Assembly (NCBI GenBank): GCA_026983955.1
Contig: JALSTB010000142.1
Span: 1-38,044, forward strand
Origin: Melioribacteraceae bacterium
Lineage (GTDB): Bacteria; Bacteroidota; Ignavibacteria; Ignavibacteriales; Melioribacteraceae
Direction: 5' to 3'
DNA: 38,044 bases
Position 1 is the first letter of the stretch, and each line of letters opens with the position of its first letter. Below, piece by piece: positions 5,086-31,889 of the stretch. The position numbers were made by a program, and so were the translations under genes. The notes below the pieces were generated by a model. It had not been told where the DNA came from. It ran no database searches and worked only from the letters and a program-made list of their open reading frames with translations.

Positions 5086-7188
5086 ATGGCTAAAAAAAGA
5101 GTTGACATAAGTAAAGTCCGGAATATCGGTATAATGGCGCACATTGATGCCGGTAAAACCACTACGACCGAAAGGATTTTGTATTACACCGGCAGAGTGC
5201 ACAGATTGGGTGAAGTTCATGACGGTGCGGCTACGATGGACTGGATGGAACAAGAAAAGGAACGCGGTATAACAATTACAAGTGCCGCTACAACTGCTTT
5301 CTGGAAAGATCACTTGATAAATATTATCGACACACCCGGACACGTGGATTTTACGGTTGAGGTTGAAAGATCACTTCGTGTACTGGATGGCGCTATCGCT
5401 TTGTTCTGTGCCGTTGGCGGCGTTGAACCGCAATCAGAAACGGTCTGGAGACAAGCCGATAAATATAAAGTGCCGAGAATTGCTTTCGTAAACAAAATGG
5501 ATAGGGTTGGAGCCGATTTCTTTAATGCCGTGCAGATGATGAAAGATAGATTGGGCGCTAATGCAATTCCTATTACGTTGCCTATTGGCGAAGGGGATAT
5601 GTTTGCAGGCGTTATAGATTTGATAACAATGAAAGCCCGGATGTATCACGATGAAACCCTTGGCGCTACCTACGAAGATATCGAAATTCCGGCCGATTTG
5701 CTTCCTTTGGCTGAAAAGCACCGCACAATTATGCTGGAAGCGGTCTCCGATGTAGACGACACCCTGCTTGAAAAATATCTTGAGGGTGAAGAAATTACCG
5801 AAGAAGAAATTAAAAATGTTTTGCGCGAAGCAACAATTCAGCTCAAAATTGTGCCGGTTATTTGTGGCTCTGCATTTAAGAACAAAGGCGTGCAAAAATT
5901 GTTGGACGGAGTGGTCGAGTTTTTGCCTTCTCCGTTGGATATGGGCGATCTTGTTGCTCACCATGCGCATAAAAACGATACCGTTACCAGGAAAATTGAT
6001 CCGGCTGAAAAATTCACAGCTTTGGCATTTAAAATTATGACCGATCCGTTTGTTGGAAGATTGACCTATGTTAGAGTTTACAGCGGTACATTAAAAGCAG
6101 GTTCGTACGTATACAATTCGGTCTCGAATAAAAAAGAAAGAGTTGGGCGCGTTTTATTGATGCATGCCAATCACCGTGAAGAAATGGAAGAAGTAAGAGC
6201 AGGCGACATTTGTGCAATTGTTGGATTGAAACATACGAGAACCGGAGATACACTATGTACGGAAGATGATCCGATAGTGCTTGAAAGAATGGCTTTCCCG
6301 GAACCGGTGATTCAAATTGCAATTGAGCCCAAAACCAAAGCCGATCAAGATAAATTATCGGAAGCGCTGCAAAAATTATCCGATGAAGATCCGACGTTCA
6401 AAGTAAAAGTGGATGAAGAGACAAACCAAACGCTCATTTCCGGTATGGGTGAATTGCATCTGGAAATTTTGGTCGATAGAATGAAAAGGGAATTCAAGGT
6501 TGATGCAAATATAGGTAAGCCTCAAGTAGCTTATCGCGAAACGATAACCAAAACCGTGCAAGCGGAAGGCAAATTCGTTAAACAATCCGGAGGCCGTGGT
6601 AAATACGGACACGTTTGGTTGGAGATTTCACCGAATGAACCCGGCAAAGGTTACGAATTTGAAAATGCTATCGTCGGAGGTGCAATCCCGAAAGAATATA
6701 TCCCGGCGGTATCTAACGGAGTTCAAGAAGCGATGAGAAACGGCGTGATTGCCGGTTATCAAGTTGTTGACGTTAAAGTGAAATTGTACGACGGTTCGTA
6801 TCATGATGTTGATTCCGATGAACTCTCGTTTAAAGTTGCAGGCTCAATGGCATTCAGAAACGGCGCATTAAAAGCCAATCCCGTTCTTCTTGAGCCGATT
6901 ATGGATATTGAAGTTACAACCCCCGAAGAATACATGGGCGATGTAATGGGCGACTTGAATTCAAGAAGAGGAAAAATTTTAGGATTTAATGCAAGGAAAG
7001 ACGCACAAGTAATAAAAGCGCAAGTGCCGCTTTCCGAAATGTTTGGGTATGCGACCACAATCCGGTCGATGACTCAAGGTAGAGCAATATATACAATGCA
7101 GTTTTCTCATTATGCACAAGTACCAAAAAATGTTGCGGATGAAATTATAGAGAAAACGCAAAATAAAAAATCTCTTGAATCCGTATAG
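5086..7188 (+). CDS. fusA: Elongation factor G
   Basis: Translocation GTPase, 700 aa. The G1 loop AHIDAGKTT is at residues 18-26, followed by the switch II DTPGH and the guanine-specificity NKMD. Domains II to V follow in normal order, including the domain IV sequence [10 protein letters not shown] and the domain V start near [14 protein letters not shown]. The ATG is 16 nt after rpsG, with AAGGA at 5068-5072 overlapping the rpsG stop. The typical rpsG-fusA-tuf order supports the housekeeping EF-G1 rather than a paralog. Confidence 0.98.
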
Positions 7189-7228
7189 TTTGAAATAACA
7201 TTTAAGTAATAATAATAAGGAGAAATCG

Positions 7229-8437
7229 ATGGCAAAAGAAAAATTTGATAGGAGTAAGCCTCACGTAAATATTGGTACTATTGGGCACGTTGATCATGGC
7301 AAAACTACTCTTACCGCCGCAATTACGATGGCTTTGGCTAAAAGAGGTTTGTCTGAAAAGAGAACCTTTGATAGTATTGACAATGCTCCTGAAGAAAGAG
7401 AACGTGGTATTACCATTGCTACGGCTCACGTGGAGTACTCAACAGAAAAAAGACATTATGCACACGTTGACTGTCCGGGTCACGCCGACTATGTTAAAAA
7501 CATGATTACCGGCGCTGCTCAAATGGACGGTGCGATTTTGGTTGTGGCAGCAACCGATGGTCCTATGCCGCAAACAAGGGAACATATATTGTTGGCGCGT
7601 CAAGTTGGCGTTCCTAGAATTGTTGTTTATATGAATAAAGTTGATATGGTTGACGACGAAGAGTTGTTGGATTTGGTTGAAATGGAATTGAGGGAATTGT
7701 TGAACGAATATGAATTCCCGGGTGACGAAATCCCGATTATCCGTGGTTCCGCCCTCCAAGCTTTGGAAGCAGCTTCGGATGACAGTGTTGGACCCGATGA
7801 TCCGAGATTGAATTCAATTTGGGAACTTATGGATGCTGTTGACGAATATATCCCTGTTCCCGAAAGGGATGTTGATAAACCTTTCTTGATGCCGGTGGAA
7901 GACGTATTCTCAATCACCGGTAGAGGAACCGTTGCAACCGGTAGAGTTGAACGCGGCGAAATCAAATTGAATGAAGAAGTCGAATTGATTGGTCTGGGCG
8001 TTCATAAGAAAACCGTTGTTACCGGAATCGAAATGTTCAGAAAAGAATTGGATTCGGCAATGGCGGGTGATAATGCCGGTTTGTTGTTGAGAGGTATCGA
8101 TAAAAATGAAATTCAAAGAGGTATGGTTTTGGCAAAACCTGGTTCAATTACACCTCACAAAGTGTTTGAAGGCGAAGTTTACATCTTGTCGAAAGAAGAA
8201 GGTGGACGTCACACTCCGTTCTTCAACGGTTACAGACCGCAGTTTTACTTCAGAACTACCGATGTAACCGGTGTGGCAACTTTGCCCGAAGGAACCGAAA
8301 TGGTTATGCCTGGTGACAACGTAAAATTGAGAGTGGAACTTATTTCCGAGATCGCTATGGATGAAGGTTTGAGATTCGCTATCCGTGAAGGCGGTAGAAC
8401 AGTTGGCGCAGGTGTTGTTACCAAAATTATTGAATAA
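7229..8437 (+). CDS. tuf: Elongation factor Tu
   Basis: GTPase that delivers aminoacyl-tRNA to the ribosomal A site. It is 402 aa, slightly longer than E. coli EF-Tu. G1 GHVDHGKT is at residues 19-26, followed by DCPGHADY and NKVD. Domains 2 and 3 are complete. An AAGGAG Shine-Dalgarno lies just before the ATG. It ends the str transcription unit, since an intrinsic terminator follows 17 nt after the stop. Confidence 0.98.
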
Positions 8438-26304: not shown

Positions 26305-27467
26305 TGAAAAATTTTTTAGTAATTGTTTTGGACGGGGTGGGAATCGGGGAATTACCCGATGCAACTGATTACAACGATGTTGGCAGCAATACCTTAAAGA
26401 ATATTTCCGAAGTTGTGGGTGGATTGAATTTACCAAATTTGGAGAAATTCGGATTGGGAAATATTGAGAACCTGAAAGGCGTAGCCCGGGTGCAAAACCC
26501 TCTCGCTTCTTTCGGGAAAATGCAAGAAGTATCAATTGGGAAAGATTCCACTTCGGGTCATTGGGAAATAGGAGGACTAAAAGTCGATTTTAAATTTCCC
26601 GTTTACCCCGATGGATTTCCGGAAGATATAATCAATAAATTTATGCAGGAAACCGGCGTTAAAGGTGTTCTTGGCAACAAACCTGCATCGGGCACACAAA
26701 TAATTCAAGAATTGGGTGACGAACATGTGAAAACCGGATATCCGATTGTTTACACTTCTGCCGATTCGGTTTTTCAAATTGCTGCACACGAAGAGGTTAT
26801 TCCCTTGCAGCGTTTATACGAAATCTGTGAAATCACACGCAACAAAGTAATGATTGGCGAACATACCGTGGGAAGGATTATTGCAAGACCGTTCGTCGGC
26901 ACTAGCGGGAATTACACCAGAACTACCAACAGAAAAGATTTTTCGGTCGATCCGGTGGGAAAAACAATTTTGGATTACTGCAGTGAAAACGGAATTCAAA
27001 CGGTTGGGATCGGGAAAGTAAACGATTTATTTAATTATAAAGGCATTAACGTTAGTGTGAAAACGAAATCGAATGCCGAAGGGATAGAGAAAATAATTGA
27101 ATTTGCCGGTAAATCGGAGCAAAGTTTTATTTTTGCAAATCTGGTTGATTTCGATGTTTATTTCGGTCACCGTAACGATCCGGAAGGTTTTCATAAGGCA
27201 TTAATCGAGTTCGACAATGCTGTGCCGGAAATAGTTGAGAAATTGGATGAATCCGACGCTTTGATAATTACCGCCGATCACGGTAATGATCCCACAACGC
27301 CAAGTACGGATCACAGCAGGGAATATGTTCCGTTGCTTTTTTACAGGAAAAATAAACCTGCTAAAAATTTGGGAATCCGCCAAACATTTTCGGACGTTGC
27401 GCAAACTGTTGCCGATTTTTACGGAATAAAAAACGGTTTGAGAGGGGAGAGTTTTTTATTTGCTTAA
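26304..27467 (+). CDS. deoB: Phosphopentomutase
   Basis: Interconverts ribose 1-phosphate and ribose 5-phosphate (and the deoxy forms) in nucleoside salvage, 387 aa, alkaline-phosphatase superfamily. Metal and active-site motifs are visible: LDGVGIGELPDA near the N-terminus, GKDSTSGHWE with the phosphorylated Thr, VDFDVYFGHRND, and ITADHGNDPTTPSTDHSREY. The start is GTG at 26304 within the TAGTG overlap with the upstream GAF gene, so it is likely cotranscribed and coupled. The restriction island begins 32 bp after its stop. Confidence 0.96.
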   Translation: MKNFLVIVLDGVGIGELPDATDYNDVGSNTLKNISEVVGGLNLPNLEKFGLGNIENLKGVARVQNPLASFGKMQEVSIGKDSTSGHWEIGGLKVDFKFPVYPDGFPEDIINKFMQETGVKGVLGNKPASGTQIIQELGDEHVKTGYPIVYTSADSVFQIAAHEEVIPLQRLYEICEITRNKVMIGEHTVGRIIARPFVGTSGNYTRTTNRKDFSVDPVGKTILDYCSENGIQTVGIGKVNDLFNYKGINVSVKTKSNAEGIEKIIEFAGKSEQSFIFANLVDFDVYFGHRNDPEGFHKALIEFDNAVPEIVEKLDESDALIITADHGNDPTTPSTDHSREYVPLLFYRKNKPAKNLGIRQTFSDVAQTVADFYGIKNGLRGESFLFA

Positions 27468-27499
27468 ATTGTTTTAATAAAAAATTATTAAACTGAATC

Positions 27500-28423
27500 A
27501 TGGAAATTAAATTCAAGGCAAAACCATTTGTTAAATGGGCAGGTGGGAAAAACCAACTATTAAATGAAATTGAAAATGTTATACCAGCTCAATTAAAAAC
27601 AAATGAGTTTATTTACATAGAACCTTTCGTAGGAGGTGGTGCGGTTCTGTTTTGGATTTTACAAAAATATCCAAATATAAGAACTGCTGTAATCAACGAT
27701 ATTAATTCAGATTTAATAAATTCTTATATCACAATAAAAGAAAATGTGGAAGAACTCATTGTAATTCTTAAAAAACTAGAAGACATGTATTACTCTTTTT
27801 TGAATAACTTAGAAAAGAAGAAGAAATTTTATTATTCCAAAAGGGAACTGTTTAATAAAAGGATATCCGACAAAGTAACTCAAACGGCATTATTCATTTT
27901 TCTTAATAGAACATGTTTTAATGGTTTATATCGGGTAAATCGTAAAAATGAATTTAATGTGCCAATAGGCAGCTATAAAAAACCAATGATTTGCGATGAA
28001 GCTAATTTGCGGGCTGTAAGTAAACTGTTGCAAAAAGTCATTATTTTAAACGGTGATTTTGAACAAACATTGCAGTATGCTAAAAACACTACATTATTTT
28101 ATTTTGATCCTCCTTATAAACCATTAAGCCAAACATCAAGTTTTAATTCATACACAAAAGATGAATTTAATGATAAAGAACAGATAAGACTTGCAAAATT
28201 TTGTATAAAAATAGATTTGCTTGGATATAAATGGATTTTAAGTAATTCTGATGTTAAAGGAAAAAATCCGAATGACAATTTTTTTGATGAATTATATGGA
28301 CAATTTAATATTAAGCGGGTTATGGCAAGAAGGAATATAAATTCAAATCCGAATAAAAGAGGTGAATTAACGGAATTATTAATTACAAATTATGGTTATG
28401 AAGAAATTATGTCAATTGCTTAA
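27500..28423 (+). CDS. Dam-like DNA adenine methyltransferase of a DpnII-type system (GATC)
   Basis: A 307-aa alpha-class N6-adenine methyltransferase related to Dam and DpnM. The SAM-binding FVKWAGGK is at residues 10-17, motif I EPFVGGGA at 41-48, the Dam-family segment RTCFNGLYRVNRKNEFNVP from 137, and catalytic DPPY at 203-206. GATC specificity is inferred from Dam family resemblance and the adjacent DpnII-type endonuclease. It is expected to protect host DNA. Only 32 bp separate it from deoB. Its codons are visibly more AT-rich than its left neighbour. It overlaps the next gene by 32 nt. Confidence 0.93.
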   Translation: MEIKFKAKPFVKWAGGKNQLLNEIENVIPAQLKTNEFIYIEPFVGGGAVLFWILQKYPNIRTAVINDINSDLINSYITIKENVEELIVILKKLEDMYYSFLNNLEKKKKFYYSKRELFNKRISDKVTQTALFIFLNRTCFNGLYRVNRKNEFNVPIGSYKKPMICDEANLRAVSKLLQKVIILNGDFEQTLQYAKNTTLFYFDPPYKPLSQTSSFNSYTKDEFNDKEQIRLAKFCIKIDLLGYKWILSNSDVKGKNPNDNFFDELYGQFNIKRVMARRNINSNPNKRGELTELLITNYGYEEIMSIA

Positions 28424-29303
28424 TAAAAAAGAAGATGAACTTTTTAATGAATTGTCTTCAACATTTAAGAAAAAAATTACTCAATGGAGTTATTTTATAA
28501 ACTGGAAAAAAGTTTTGCAAAACATTAAACCAATTGAGAAGGAGTTAAATTTATTAAATTATTTGATTGGTAAAAATAACTTACAAAAAGAGACGGTAGA
28601 TTTGTTAGTAAAATATCCTGAAACAATTAAAGCCATTCCTTTGCTTTTAGCAATTAGGGAAAATTCTTTGGAAGTATTAATTGATACCAGAAATTTTATT
28701 TATCGCGAATTTGACTTTTCTAAAAGGAAATATTCAAAAGAAGAAATAAAATCTTTTGCAGATTTCATATTAAAAAGCGGATTGGGAGAACTTTTAAAGG
28801 GCAAAAAAATAAAGAATTTAGTTGATTATGCCACTGGTGTTGAGGTTGGATTAGACAGTAATGGAAGAAAAAACAGAGGCGGCAGTCTTATGGAAAATTT
28901 GGTTGAAGATTTTATCAGAGATACCTGTAAAGAGTTAGATATTGAATATTTGCCACAAGCCACCGCAAAGAAAATAAAAGAAAAATGGAATATTAATGTG
29001 CAAGTAGACAAGTCGTCAAGAATTATTGATTTTGCCATTAACAAAAACGGAAAACTTTATTTTATTGAAGTGAATTTTTATGGTGGAGGCGGTTCTAAAC
29101 TCAAATCAACAGCAACCGAATATATTCGAATGAATGAATATTGGAATGAACAAGGTATTGAGTTTATTTGGATAACCGATGGTGCCGGTTGGCAATCCAC
29201 CTTAAAACCTTTAAGGGAGTATTTTGACAAAGCCGATTATTTGTTGAATTTAGAAATGTTAAGAACTGGAATTTTAAAAAGAATATTGAATAATGGCTAT
29301 TAG
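28392..29303 (+). CDS. DpnII-family type II restriction endonuclease (GATC)
   Basis: A 303-aa protein resembling DpnII/MboI-type enzymes, which cut unmethylated GATC. The family signature IEVNFYGGGGSKL (225-237) is clear. The likely PD-(D/E)XK-type site is D213 (RIIDF) and E226-V-N228, with N in place of the usual lysine, plus upstream E168/E172. ATG 28392 is used. A second in-frame ATG is at 28398, and neither has a clear Shine-Dalgarno. The 32-nt overlap with the methyltransferase suggests that translation of the nuclease depends on it. The 3' end overlaps the next gene by 11 nt. Confidence 0.9.
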   Translation: MVMKKLCQLLNKKEDELFNELSSTFKKKITQWSYFINWKKVLQNIKPIEKELNLLNYLIGKNNLQKETVDLLVKYPETIKAIPLLLAIRENSLEVLIDTRNFIYREFDFSKRKYSKEEIKSFADFILKSGLGELLKGKKIKNLVDYATGVEVGLDSNGRKNRGGSLMENLVEDFIRDTCKELDIEYLPQATAKKIKEKWNINVQVDKSSRIIDFAINKNGKLYFIEVNFYGGGGSKLKSTATEYIRMNEYWNEQGIEFIWITDGAGWQSTLKPLREYFDKADYLLNLEMLRTGILKRILNNGY

Positions 29304-29829
29304 GAACGATAATTCAATAAATATTGAATTATGTAATATTGAAAGCTACACAACAAGAGATGCAGTTAGAACATTTCTTTTACAACAATGGGCACAAGAA
29401 AACGTTGGCAATAAATATAGATATTTTGTTGAAACGCTTGCTGACGGTTCTAGAATATATTTAGAAAGACCAGGAAGATTAAATAAAGGTTGTGATTTTG
29501 TTATTTATGCTGAAAATAAATATTTATGGAAGAATGGAAATGACAGACCACCTGATCACGATTTTGTATTAGATGATTTAAGAAATAAAAAACAAATGTT
29601 AACCCCAACACATTGGCAAAATTTATTAAAAGGAATTCTAGTTATATATAATTGTGGAACATATAGTACAGCTTTACAACAGATGGGTAAACTACCTATT
29701 GTATCTGGTCATAGCTATGAATTATTACTAAAGCTTATACGGTGGTTTTTTAATGAACAAGACGTTACATATTGGTCCGGTCAAGGCAGAGCAATGTTTT
29801 ATAATGCTATACAAAGTATTTATTTATGA
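29293..29829 (+). CDS. Unrecognised protein in the DpnII-type operon
   Basis: A 178-aa soluble protein with no family I recognise. It is rich in aromatic residues (several W and Y), with one internal hydrophobic stretch (LLKGILVIYN, about 111-120) and no signal peptide or complete nuclease or methyltransferase motif. It overlaps the endonuclease by 11 nt and the second methyltransferase by 4 nt (ATGA), so it is a full member of the operon. Classical dpnM-dpnA-dpnB loci do not contain it. It could be an accessory specificity or regulatory factor, or a separate defence function. No helix-turn-helix is obvious, which argues against a simple controller protein. Confidence 0.8.
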   Translation: MAIRNDNSINIELCNIESYTTRDAVRTFLLQQWAQENVGNKYRYFVETLADGSRIYLERPGRLNKGCDFVIYAENKYLWKNGNDRPPDHDFVLDDLRNKKQMLTPTHWQNLLKGILVIYNCGTYSTALQQMGKLPIVSGHSYELLLKLIRWFFNEQDVTYWSGQGRAMFYNAIQSIYL

Positions 29830-30710
29830 TTATACCTTATTTCAAATCAAAAGATAAGAATTTTACTCTTTTACAAGGCGATGTTTTTGAATTGTTACCA
29901 CAATTCGATTTTAAATTTGATATGGTTTTTGCCGATCCGCCCTATTTTTTGTCAAATGACGGACTTACGATTAAAAATGGAAAAATCACAAGTGTAAATA
30001 AAGGCAATTGGGATAAATCAAAAGGTTTTGAATATATTAATGACTTCAACCGTAGATGGCTGAAACTTATTCGTGATAAAATGAAAGAAGAGGCGACAAT
30101 TTGGATAAGTGGTACTATGCACAATATTTTTAGTATAGGTCAAATATTAACTGAATTAGATTTTAAGATTTTAAATATTATCACTTGGCAAAAAACAAAT
30201 CCACCCCCAAACTTTTCCAGAAAATATTTTACTCATTCGACCGAGCAAATAATTTGGGCAAGAAAAAACGCCAAGGTTCCACACTATTTCAATTACGAAT
30301 TAATGAAAGAATTAAATGACGGTAAACAAATGAAAGACGTTTGGACTTTGCCAGCAATCGCATCATGGGAAAAATTGTGTGGAAAGCATCCTACACAAAA
30401 GCCGCTGTCTGTTTTAGCAAGAATAATTCTTGCTTCAACAAGAAAAGGAGCGTGGATAATTGATCCGTTTACAGGAAGTAGCACTACGGGCATTGCAGCA
30501 AATTTATTGGAAAGAAAATTTTTAGGTATAGATATAGAAAGTGAATATCTTGAAATAAGTAAGTGTAGAAAATTCGAAATAGAAAACCAGATTGTTTTTA
30601 ACAAATACCGTCGTAAAATACAAGGATTTAAAGAACCGGAACAGCTAGAATTATATTTAGCGAAAGAAAATGTAGTAAATTATGACAATAATATAGATTT
30701 TAATAATTGA
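29826..30710 (+). CDS. DpnA-like DNA methyltransferase (second methylase of the island)
   Basis: A 294-aa beta-class methyltransferase. Motif order is catalytic DPPY (37-40) first, then HPTQKP (188-193) and the SAM-binding DPFTGSSTTG (from 213). In Streptococcus, DpnA methylates GATC also on single-stranded DNA and protects incoming transforming DNA. The same role here is inference. The start overlaps the preceding gene (ATGA, 29826-29829). It closes the restriction-modification operon. Base composition stays AT-rich to its end. Confidence 0.92.
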   Translation: MIIPYFKSKDKNFTLLQGDVFELLPQFDFKFDMVFADPPYFLSNDGLTIKNGKITSVNKGNWDKSKGFEYINDFNRRWLKLIRDKMKEEATIWISGTMHNIFSIGQILTELDFKILNIITWQKTNPPPNFSRKYFTHSTEQIIWARKNAKVPHYFNYELMKELNDGKQMKDVWTLPAIASWEKLCGKHPTQKPLSVLARIILASTRKGAWIIDPFTGSSTTGIAANLLERKFLGIDIESEYLEISKCRKFEIENQIVFNKYRRKIQGFKEPEQLELYLAKENVVNYDNNIDFNN

Positions 30711-30785
30711 AAAAAACTGTTACCGAAAATAAGAGTATTAAAAAATTTGTTAATTGATATTAGAATGATTAGGAAAATTTGATAT
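30711..30785 (+). other. Right edge of the restriction island
   Basis: A 75-bp AT-rich spacer between the last methyltransferase and the 49-aa ORF. No hairpin terminator, direct repeat shared with the left edge, or integrase-type site could be seen. AGGA at 30771-30774 can serve the next small ORF. Confidence 0.3.
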
Positions 30786-30935
30786 ATGAATAAAACAAAT
30801 CAATCACATGATGTAAATAAAAAACTTCTGAAGAAAATCATTAAAATGCAGTCCATTCCCAGAGAAGTTGCAATTGGGTTTCTATTGACCAAAGGTAAAT
30901 TCAAGAAAATTAAAATTAGGAACGGTTTTTGTTGA
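30786..30935 (+). CDS. 49-aa basic protein, possible antitoxin or leader of the PIN gene
   Basis: ATG at 30786, preceded in frame by a stop at 30780 and by AGGA 11 nt upstream. The product is 49 aa and strongly basic (MNKTNQSHDVNKK..., ending KKIKIRNGFC). Its TGA at 30933-30935 overlaps the TTG start of the PIN gene, the arrangement typical of antitoxin-toxin pairs. No known antitoxin DNA-binding fold is recognisable and it is shorter than most VapB proteins. It may be a minimal antitoxin, a remnant or a translational leader. Confidence 0.5.
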   Translation: MNKTNQSHDVNKKLLKKIIKMQSIPREVAIGFLLTKGKFKKIKIRNGFC

Positions 30936-31318
30936 AAAATAAAGAGTATTTGATAGAAACCGATATTTTCGTTAAACATCTGAAACACAGGGGTAAAGGT
31001 AACTCGGCGCTGGAACTGGCAATGAGTTCCGGACTCTGTTTTACAACCGTATTGAATGCGGCGGAATTGATTGATGCGGCGAAAACGGAGAGTGAAAGAG
31101 ATATTGTAATATCTTTACTTAGTGCAGTAAAAATTTTAGGTTTGCATCACCGTTACAGTTTGTATGTAAATGAATTTTCCGGAAAAGTTGTCTCAATTCG
31201 AGATTCTTTATTTTGTGTTGTGGCAAAAATAAATAAATTGGTTATATTAACCGATGATATTCGCAGATTTAAGCGAACCGGACTAAAAATTATTTCATCA
31301 AGAGATTTGAGAGGATAA
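30932..31318 (+). CDS. PIN-domain protein, VapC-like
   Basis: A 128-aa single-domain PIN protein, probable Mg-dependent ribonuclease. Acidic residues sit where VapC toxins have them: D in ETDIFV near residue 11, E in LNAAEL near 45, D in IRDSLFC near 91, D in LTDDIRRF near 108-109. TTG codons at 30929 and 30932 are both possible starts. AGGA lies at 30918-30921, and 30932 gives a TTGA overlap with the upstream stop. Its own TAA directly abuts the ATG of the first vertex-protein gene, with GAGAGGA as ribosome binding site inside its 3' end. Base composition is like the host, not like the island. Confidence 0.82.
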   Translation: MKNKEYLIETDIFVKHLKHRGKGNSALELAMSSGLCFTTVLNAAELIDAAKTESERDIVISLLSAVKILGLHHRYSLYVNEFSGKVVSIRDSLFCVVAKINKLVILTDDIRRFKRTGLKIISSRDLRG

Positions 31319-31618
31319 ATGCATCTCGGAAAAGTAATTGGTACTGTTTGGTCGACCAGAAAAGATGAAAAACTGGTAGGCGCAAAATTTTTGATTGTCC
31401 GCCAGTTGAATTTGGATTACACTCCGAAAGACAATTTCGTAGTTGCGGTGGATTCCGTTGGTGCCGGAGTTGGTGAAATTGTGCTTTATGCGCAAGGAAG
31501 TTCGGCAAGGCAAACCACATTTACAAAAAACAAACCCGTGGATGCCGTGATTATGGCAATTGTCGATAAGCTTGATATTCCGGTGAAGGAAAAACTAAAC
31601 GAAATGGTGAAAAATTAA
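31319..31618 (+). CDS. EutN/CcmL-family microcompartment vertex protein 1
   Basis: 99 aa, with the EutN/CcmL fold signature: N-terminal GKVIGTVWSTRKDEKLVGAK and the central VGAGVGEIVLYAQGSSAR. In bacterial microcompartments such proteins form pentamers that cap the vertices of the shell. The ATG abuts the stop of the PIN gene and the gene is followed after 1 nt by a second homologue. No hexameric shell gene or encapsulated enzyme is in the window. It has a charged C-terminal tail after about residue 85. Confidence 0.9.
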   Translation: MHLGKVIGTVWSTRKDEKLVGAKFLIVRQLNLDYTPKDNFVVAVDSVGAGVGEIVLYAQGSSARQTTFTKNKPVDAVIMAIVDKLDIPVKEKLNEMVKN

Positions 31619-31619
31619 A

Positions 31620-31889
31620 ATGATTTTAGCCCGGGTAATAGGAACAATATGGGCTACGCGCAAGTATGAAACCGTAAAAGGTTATAAGTTGCAATTTATT
31701 CAACCGGTAGATGCAAAACTGAATGAGGTTGGCGATCCGGTTGTTGCCGTCGATACGATTGGTGCGGGTCCGGGCGAAATTGTTTTTTACGCAACGTCGA
31801 GCGAATCGGTAATTGCAATGGATGTTGATATGGCTCCGGTCGATGCTTCAATTGTGGGAATTGTTGATTCAATTAATTCTAAAAATTAA
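31620..31889 (+). CDS. EutN/CcmL-family microcompartment vertex protein 2
   Basis: 89 aa, homologous to the preceding protein but clearly diverged: ARVIGTIWATRKYETVKGYK at the N-terminus and IGAGPGEIVFYATSSESV in the centre, where the usual GSSAR is replaced. Two vertex paralogs with different surfaces may cap distinct shells or form mixed assemblies; this is inference. It starts 1 nt after the first gene and ends 15 nt before the sigma factor start. Confidence 0.9.
   Translation: MILARVIGTIWATRKYETVKGYKLQFIQPVDAKLNEVGDPVVAVDTIGAGPGEIVFYATSSESVIAMDVDMAPVDASIVGIVDSINSKN

Follow-up and report, generated by a model that had tools for sequence, protein, structure and literature searches.

A fourth gene in a DpnII-type operon

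Four genes, each overlapping the next, follow one another on the plus strand of the 38,044-nt stretch of DNA analysed here (the window). The first (27500..28423) encodes a Dam-type N6-adenine DNA methyltransferase (PF02086, 1e-66; TIGR00571, 1.1e-89), the sole PF02086 match in the whole genome, and overlaps by 32 nt the gene of a DpnII-type restriction endonuclease (28392..29303; PF04556, 2.7e-97). An ORF with an ATG start and a 178-aa product (29293..29829) overlaps the endonuclease gene by 11 nt and, at its 3´ end, overlaps by 4 nt the gene of a DpnA-like N6/N4 DNA methyltransferase (29826..30710; PF01555, 6.8e-57; PADLOC MTase_II, 1.7e-94). With a PF04556 nuclease and methyltransferases of Dam and DpnA type, the operon is that of a DpnII-type Type II restriction-modification (R-M) system; the ORF coordinates and domain matches bear out the gene, both of its overlaps and the type of operon as described in a first, sequence-only reading. 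All three classical genes of the DpnII/MboI-type operon (two m6A methyltransferases and a PF04556 nuclease) are present, and the window differs in having a fourth gene between the nuclease and the second methyltransferase. Our searches of CC-licensed papers recognised no described accessory gene in DpnII-type operons.

The 178-aa ORF, seen in the ORF list, the family alignment and an AF2 model, is more than a chance ORF, because it has relatives in other taxa and because dN is far below dS in comparison with the copy at locus L006 (79% amino acid identity, dN 0.134, dS 1.03, NG86). Judged from these rates, the gene is under purifying selection relative to that copy. L006 has the same four-gene order as the window, with identities of 86% for DpnII, 80% for DpnA and 73% for Dam; in this comparison Dam and DpnII have a high dS, and for DpnA none could be estimated. 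Relatives support the ATG as the start: L006, L004 (= L002, L007) and L008 align from that position with MAIR(N/Q)D. No strong ribosome-binding site was seen by eye before the ORF, and its translation may be coupled to that of its neighbours within the operon. GATC occurs 65 times in the window against 127 expected, a crude estimate from base composition alone.

The site occupied by the operon is empty in all five relatives examined (two congeneric, three from elsewhere in the family), where the phosphopentomutase gene is followed directly by a PIN-EutN-EutN-sigma factor-NlpC run and tblastn found no match to the four R-M proteins. In blastn, DNA matching the relative G500 stops at about 27455 and starts again at about 30786; the 3.3-kb segment between these flanks (27456..30785, plus strand, edges good to a few bases) holds exactly the four R-M genes, and GC at 27500-30710 is 0.292 compared with 0.383 for the whole window. 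The 178-aa gene therefore entered the site as one of the unit's inner genes. The names phosphopentomutase, rpoD and NlpC, like smg and MTaseW below, were given by eye or by similarity to reference proteins. Downstream, at 30786-31318, a short ORF that by eye looks conserved with G500 lies just upstream of a PIN-domain gene (PF01850), and may encode the antitoxin of a VapBC-like pair. Two tandem EutN/CcmL-type genes (31319-31889; the first a Pfam match) lie directly upstream of the sigma-factor gene, and the PIN-EutN-EutN-sigma-NlpC order, with its EutN/CcmL shell-vertex genes, is kept in 5/5 relatives examined.

A superfamily absent from the family libraries searched

Up to E 1, Pfam, NCBIfam and PHROGs contain no match to the 178-aa protein; PDB sequences give none up to E 10, and PADLOC (2023) gives nothing significant, one type IV Cas7 model reaching E 0.011. 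S100-A9, the single PDB match of the family profile (E 1.1), was taken as chance, as were four Pfam families matched by one member each among 19 members (best E 0.025). No helix-turn-helix (HTH) family of Pfam is matched by the window protein or the 19 members, and the HTH_3-type feature of controller (C) proteins is absent. Among the invariant and near-invariant columns of two alignments (A2, A4) there is no conserved (D/E)-x-K triplet and no other recognised nuclease motif. The first reading had likewise recognised no family and no HTH or nuclease signature, and had called for profile and structure searches; those made here matched no characterised family and no significant PDB fold.

The family was reached via alignments, genome-set searches and one search with the L017 protein. 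Used as a single query, the window protein retrieved no relative from genome contigs, viral contigs, plasmids or phages, nor did the L003 protein from plasmids or the L022 protein from phages. A three-row alignment found nine loci in genome contigs and 11 in viral contigs, and a repeat viral scan with the larger alignment A2 returned the same 11 contigs. The superfamily that emerged has branches for which we coined the labels FAM1 (with the window protein), FAM1´, FAM2 and FAM4. FAM1 is present in 3/296 genomes of the phylum (single-protein search), in 9/391 of the class (alignment search), in 3/54 of one family and in 7/200 of the family of genome G636, two of these being of the FAM1´ branch; two weak matches of the class draw (L033/L034) were dropped, their wider loci (L039/L040) giving no family ORF. 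One Leuconostoc plasmid carries a broken FAM1 copy. By record title, the taxa include Bacteroidetes, Deferribacteraceae, Gamma- and Alphaproteobacteria, Ruminococcaceae, Lachnospiraceae and Clostridiaceae. FAM2 was found in three plasmid records, in no phage record and, among viral contigs, only in two already found; FAM4 occurs in five of the 391 class genomes.

In profile comparisons FAM1 is linked to FAM1´ with a score of 64 and to FAM2 with 63-70, the best of 150 control ORFs scoring 29.5; the direct comparison of FAM2 with FAM1´ was not significant. FAM4 alone shows no link to FAM1 or FAM2 (13-21). It joins the superfamily solely, and with moderate support from profile scores, through the L147 protein as an intermediate (FAM4-L147 81-82, L147-FAM2 34-41, L147-FAM1 33-34, L147 against a FAM1+FAM1´ profile 28.5-28.8); controls for the FAM4 comparisons were at most 21.5 among 120, and L147 itself was scored without controls. 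The proteins are mostly 175-250 aa long. Invariant in a 19-row alignment are Y44, R59-P60, G66, D68-F69, P87, W151 and F153 and, in the C-terminal part, E155-Q156-D157, Y160-W161 and G165-R166; H89-x5-D95-x3-K99 is often conserved. The signature H-x5-D-x3-[KR] is found in 28/36 family sequences (a set other than the 36 loci tabulated below) compared with 8/212 other ORFs of 140-300 aa, and, being derived from those same alignments, describes rather than tests the family. Streptomyces phage BillNye gp155 (L059 39221-39817; phrog_11668, of unknown function), outside any recognised R-M context, resembles the window model (BFVD TMq 0.57, prob 0.92) with a collinear hhalign match, the scores against FAM1 (29.1 and 31.3) being about those of the best of 150 controls (29.5); it is possibly a distant relative of FAM1 and was left out of family counts.

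AF2 models of the window protein (pLDDT 88.8, pTM 0.86) and the L022 protein (86.8, 0.84) agree in the order of their elements and, sharing nearly all alignment rows, are not independent. In both, a first helix is predicted to be followed by four short strands and five helices, in the window model in the order H22-33, E42-48, E54-58, E70-73, H89-102, then helices. No PDB fold is matched significantly, the best Foldseek E being 0.22 (window) and 0.089 (L022). The best VIA Z values, within noise at this level according to the tool's own notes, are 3.2 for the window model (an arenavirus polymerase) and 4.6 for the L022 model (SufU/IscU-type, about 70 residues, 4.3-4.6). The best BFVD row by E-value is an unnamed 290-aa protein (E 4.4e-3, prob 0.75, TMq 0.28). 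No clear match to a PD-(D/E)XK core (alpha-beta-beta-beta-alpha-beta) stands among the Foldseek and VIA matches listed, which excludes nothing. Foldseek rows for YTH-domain proteins and CcbJ at TM of about 0.2 lend no support to a role as an m6A reader.

Among the weak matches to the L022 model, ribosome-inactivating protein (RIP)-type N-glycosidases are the commonest group: in VIA they reach Z 3.0-3.9 at rmsd of about 5, aligned over most of the chain (about 114-132 residues), and in Foldseek they take the first four rows (E 0.089-0.12, prob 0.21-0.30, TMq 0.29-0.34); for the window model they reach VIA Z 2.0-2.8. Unlike the RIP family, which has a Glu-x-x-Arg pair on the active-site helix, the superfamily has no such Pfam match and no such pair: none of 19 rows has Arg at +3 from E155, the residue there being I, V, L or C. 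Another adenine glycosylase, PabI, gives weak partial VIA matches to the window model (Z 2.8, rmsd 3.4, 83 aligned) and the L022 model (Z 4.5, rmsd 2.9, 67 aligned). There is no sequence match to R.PabI, and whereas its half-pipe shape is a long curved sheet, the FAM models have short strands and helices. The predicted resemblance to adenine N-glycosidases is faint and only a lead.

One slot, several nucleases

Thirty-six loci were tabulated by HMM and reference-protein annotation with a neighbourhood of 5 kb. Thirty-four were found via a family member; L113 and L114 were found via their DpnII gene, and their company is no evidence. Duplicates were collapsed (L002/L004/L007, L003/L005/L013, L017/L018, L029/L035, L030/L036, L031/L037, L032/L038, and L041-L051 = L015-L025); L023/L024 (95% amino acid identity) and L012/L022 (85%) were kept apart, and the 36 are not fully independent. 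An N6/N4 methyltransferase lies within 5 kb in 32 of them (30/34 without L113 and L114). Of the remaining four, L014 and L108 border on or lie close to a contig end, L111 is next to a C5-type methyltransferase ORF (named by eye), and L052 has a gene whose damage precluded scoring, together with an annotated DNA adenine methylase.

The nucleases are of several types: DpnII (18), MutH/Sau3AI-like (12, counting a truncated 91-aa ORF in L004), PDDEXK_11-like (5), PDDEXK-255 (2) and Mrr (1), one locus being able to count repeatedly, as 10/36 have more than one type. A recognised nuclease is present within 5 kb in 27/36 loci and absent in nine, among them L052, scored as nuclease-less although a PDDEXK_11-like neighbour sits just under the Pfam cut-off. 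Since the nuclease varies, the shared factor is the methyltransferase or its target rather than one nuclease. In ten GATC-type islands (L012, L015, L017, L020, L021, L022, L023, L024, L106, L110), two or three nuclease types lie near one methyltransferase set. SsuDAT1I of S. suis, reported to have two isoschizomeric GATC endonucleases and likened here by description, is a precedent for more than one nuclease per GATC system. DUF7004 (PF22539) and a PDDEXK_11-like nuclease adjoin the family gene in L005 (6074-7111) and L021 (1121-2132); DUF7004 also occurs with FAM1 in L020 and L022, there without such a nuclease.

Branches of the superfamily replace each other in the same arrangements. Dam-DpnII-FAM1-DpnA (window, L006) is paralleled by Dam-DpnII-FAM4-DpnA (L113), Dam-FAM1-MutH (L038) by Dam-FAM4-MutH-MTaseW (L145), and DpnA-PDDEXK255-FAM1 (L008) by DpnA-FAM4-PDDEXK255 (L146); L109 has Dam-FAM2-DpnA-DpnII, and L110 the same plus an Mrr gene. 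We rate this replacement as the strongest evidence for one shared role. Three FAM2-only plasmid loci stand outside the 36 and have no annotated methyltransferase within 5 kb: in Exiguobacterium, FAM2 adjoins McrC and AAA-ATPase genes, and in two Priestia plasmids a cytosine methyltransferase and a nuclease of the MutH/Sau3AI family lie at a distance of about 7-9 kb from it.

The sequence-only reading had suggested that the protein could be an accessory of the restriction system or an additional defence component. It stands as to a component, since the gene is built into a four-gene unit in the window and keeps company with R-M genes elsewhere, and fails as to DpnII: half of the loci (18/36) have no recognised DpnII nearby, presence in DpnII operons is not constant, and an accessory specific to DpnII was rejected. 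Co-occurrence with DpnII-like nucleases, proposed there as a check, holds in part. L006, L011 and others have both genes, so that the family is not confined to the window's operon. PF04556 matches occur in 34/391 class genomes and are full-length in only six (G000, G422, G444, G459, G488, G524). FAM1 is present in one of the six, FAM4 in two (with an in-frame stop in G524) and neither in three; conversely, 6/7 strong FAM1 genomes of the class draw are without a full-length DpnII match. The DpnII operons L112, L115 and L116, of the same class, gave no FAM1, FAM2 or FAM4 profile match even at E 10; L115 has a 123-aa ORF between Dam and DpnII. In many class genomes (L069-L092) the match is confined to the C-terminal part of PF04556; the proteins concerned, most of them about 290-375 aa long, are possibly a different nuclease family. 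The slot protein is an optional component of GATC-type R-M systems, whichever nuclease is present; the earlier interpretation was right in kind and too narrow.

Restriction side or modification side

Three sets of observations bear on the side of the system to which the slot protein belongs. First, in L107, L109 and L110 a controller-like HTH gene stands directly upstream of the FAM gene on the same strand, with a methyltransferase gene divergent and no other nuclease within the run; in L106 the run is C-PDDEXK_11-FAM1. The FAM copy behind the controller-like gene is broken in L107, and FAM1´ is intact in L109. In typical Type II loci, according to a passage of PMC12707154, C proteins boost the co-transcribed endonuclease gene. 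A simple C-R-M reading is counted against by the divergent methyltransferase gene itself, which in L109 (6640-7467) has an in-frame stop (the L110 homolog is open) and in L106 and L107 has an open frame with no ATG, GTG or TTG near the conserved start. As FAM1´ is intact beside the interrupted gene in L109, that methyltransferase is not protecting there; each of the four loci has Dam and DpnA nearby.

Second, the family gene decays beside intact methyltransferases (L009, where DpnA is also broken, L037, L052, L107). Third, it is co-mobile with methyltransferases. L035 and L036 are two-gene FAM1+methyltransferase pairs at different sites in two congeneric genomes, and at each site the pair is absent from the other genome (L129, L133); for these reciprocal empty sites only G433/G403 are informative (plus G444 for the smg site), 5/8 stretches showing one flank only and 0/8 holding FAM or its methyltransferase. 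No nuclease of the reference set lies within 5 kb of either pair, and L147 is a methyltransferase+FAM4´ pair likewise without a recognised nuclease. The best NCBIfam match of the L036 methyltransferase is PRK11524, an adenine-specific methyltransferase. Its gene (6706-7581) and that of L035 (6651-7532) both encode DPDY in place of DPPY, the usual motif; the enzyme need not be GATC-specific.

Because of the C-gene placement, the decay beside methyltransferases and the co-mobile pairs combined, a restriction effector acting on unmethylated sites fits best. We favour this reading over the others discussed here, at a probability of roughly 0.4. Small superfamily proteins would fill one slot in GATC-type (DpnII/MboI/Sau3AI-like) systems, where the slot protein, presumably a DNA-acting enzyme with, judging from its neighbours, GATC as its target, would recognise the system's unmethylated target and then damage or mark that DNA, the accompanying methyltransferases protecting the host. 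Beside DpnII, MutH-like or other PD-(D/E)XK nucleases it would be a further means of attacking the site that they target. By analogy, the same co-mobility logic favours this reading: what is reported of R.PabI in a part of PMC10273834 is that it was found through the co-mobility of an unknown gene with a methyltransferase, and that R.PabI and the HALFPIPE glycosylases are, like FAM, small, dissimilar to known endonucleases, co-mobile with methyltransferases and often inactivated. Counting against a restriction effector are the lack of a visible nuclease motif or significant PDB fold match, the other nuclease near 27/36 loci, which would be enough for restriction, the interrupted methyltransferase of L109, the DpnII operons without a slot protein and the FAM2-only plasmid loci. 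In its most specific form, this reading would make the superfamily adenine N-glycosylases that remove adenine from GATC where it is unmethylated, forming a second and independent class of restriction enzymes that work by base excision, with immunity by Dam/DpnA m6A, as an extra weapon beside phosphodiester-cutting enzymes with the same specificity; we regard this as a long shot.

A cleavage cofactor is the next possibility, tentative in our estimate: a non-catalytic GATC-binding or nuclease-activating partner that would raise the activity or fidelity of the operon's nuclease, as MutL activates MutH. In its favour are the recognised nuclease in 27/36 loci, often adjacent, the recurrence of DUF7004-PDDEXK_11-FAM runs (L005, L021), the MutH-like genes that adjoin FAM (L012, L017, L020, L022, L038, L145) and the lack of a catalytic signature. 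Its difficulties are that the partner nucleases are of different types, that enzymes of DpnII and Sau3AI type cut without such a partner, that L035, L036 and L147 have no recognised nuclease, and that the C-FAM1´ runs of L109 and L110 are nuclease-free, though with DpnII in a neighbouring run.

Less probable, and in our view unlikely, is a specificity or stability subunit of one of the system's methyltransferases. The co-mobile pairs alone, L147 included, fit such a partner equally well, and the 4-nt overlap with DpnA in the window agrees with it. Against this, the family is found with Dam, DpnA, MTaseW or YhdJ-like methyltransferases interchangeably, and Dam and DpnA are active alone. In L005, L010, L023 and L024 the gene shares its strand with no recognised Dam or DpnA gene; it is broken beside intact methyltransferases and sits behind C-like genes with the methyltransferase divergent (L107, L109, L110). 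A precedent, likened to FAM by description only, is Pin25611IV of Prevotella, for which a section of PMC5608340 reports that the gene of a hypothetical specificity protein in an R-M locus has a 4-bp overlap with a methyltransferase gene and is needed for methylation of a bipartite motif. A regulator of operon expression, or a safety factor shielding unmethylated host sites from the nuclease, agrees with the small size and the constant presence with variable nucleases and is improbable given the lack of an HTH match in the window protein and 19 members, the separate HTH controller-like genes in L106, L107, L109 and L110, and the nuclease genes kept despite a broken copy in L052 and L108, which would be unexpected for a safety factor.

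In conclusion, GATC R-M systems have a recurring extra component, absent from the family libraries searched, whose action is most likely on the restriction side. Although GATC restriction enzymes are familiar from textbooks and in daily use as reagents, this mobile component recurs in many of their operons and is missing from those libraries. If it is a restriction effector or a cleavage cofactor, it would explain how one methylation scheme can serve different nucleases, and the two-gene units of a FAM protein and a methyltransferase are well suited to testing for a restriction chemistry that may be new.
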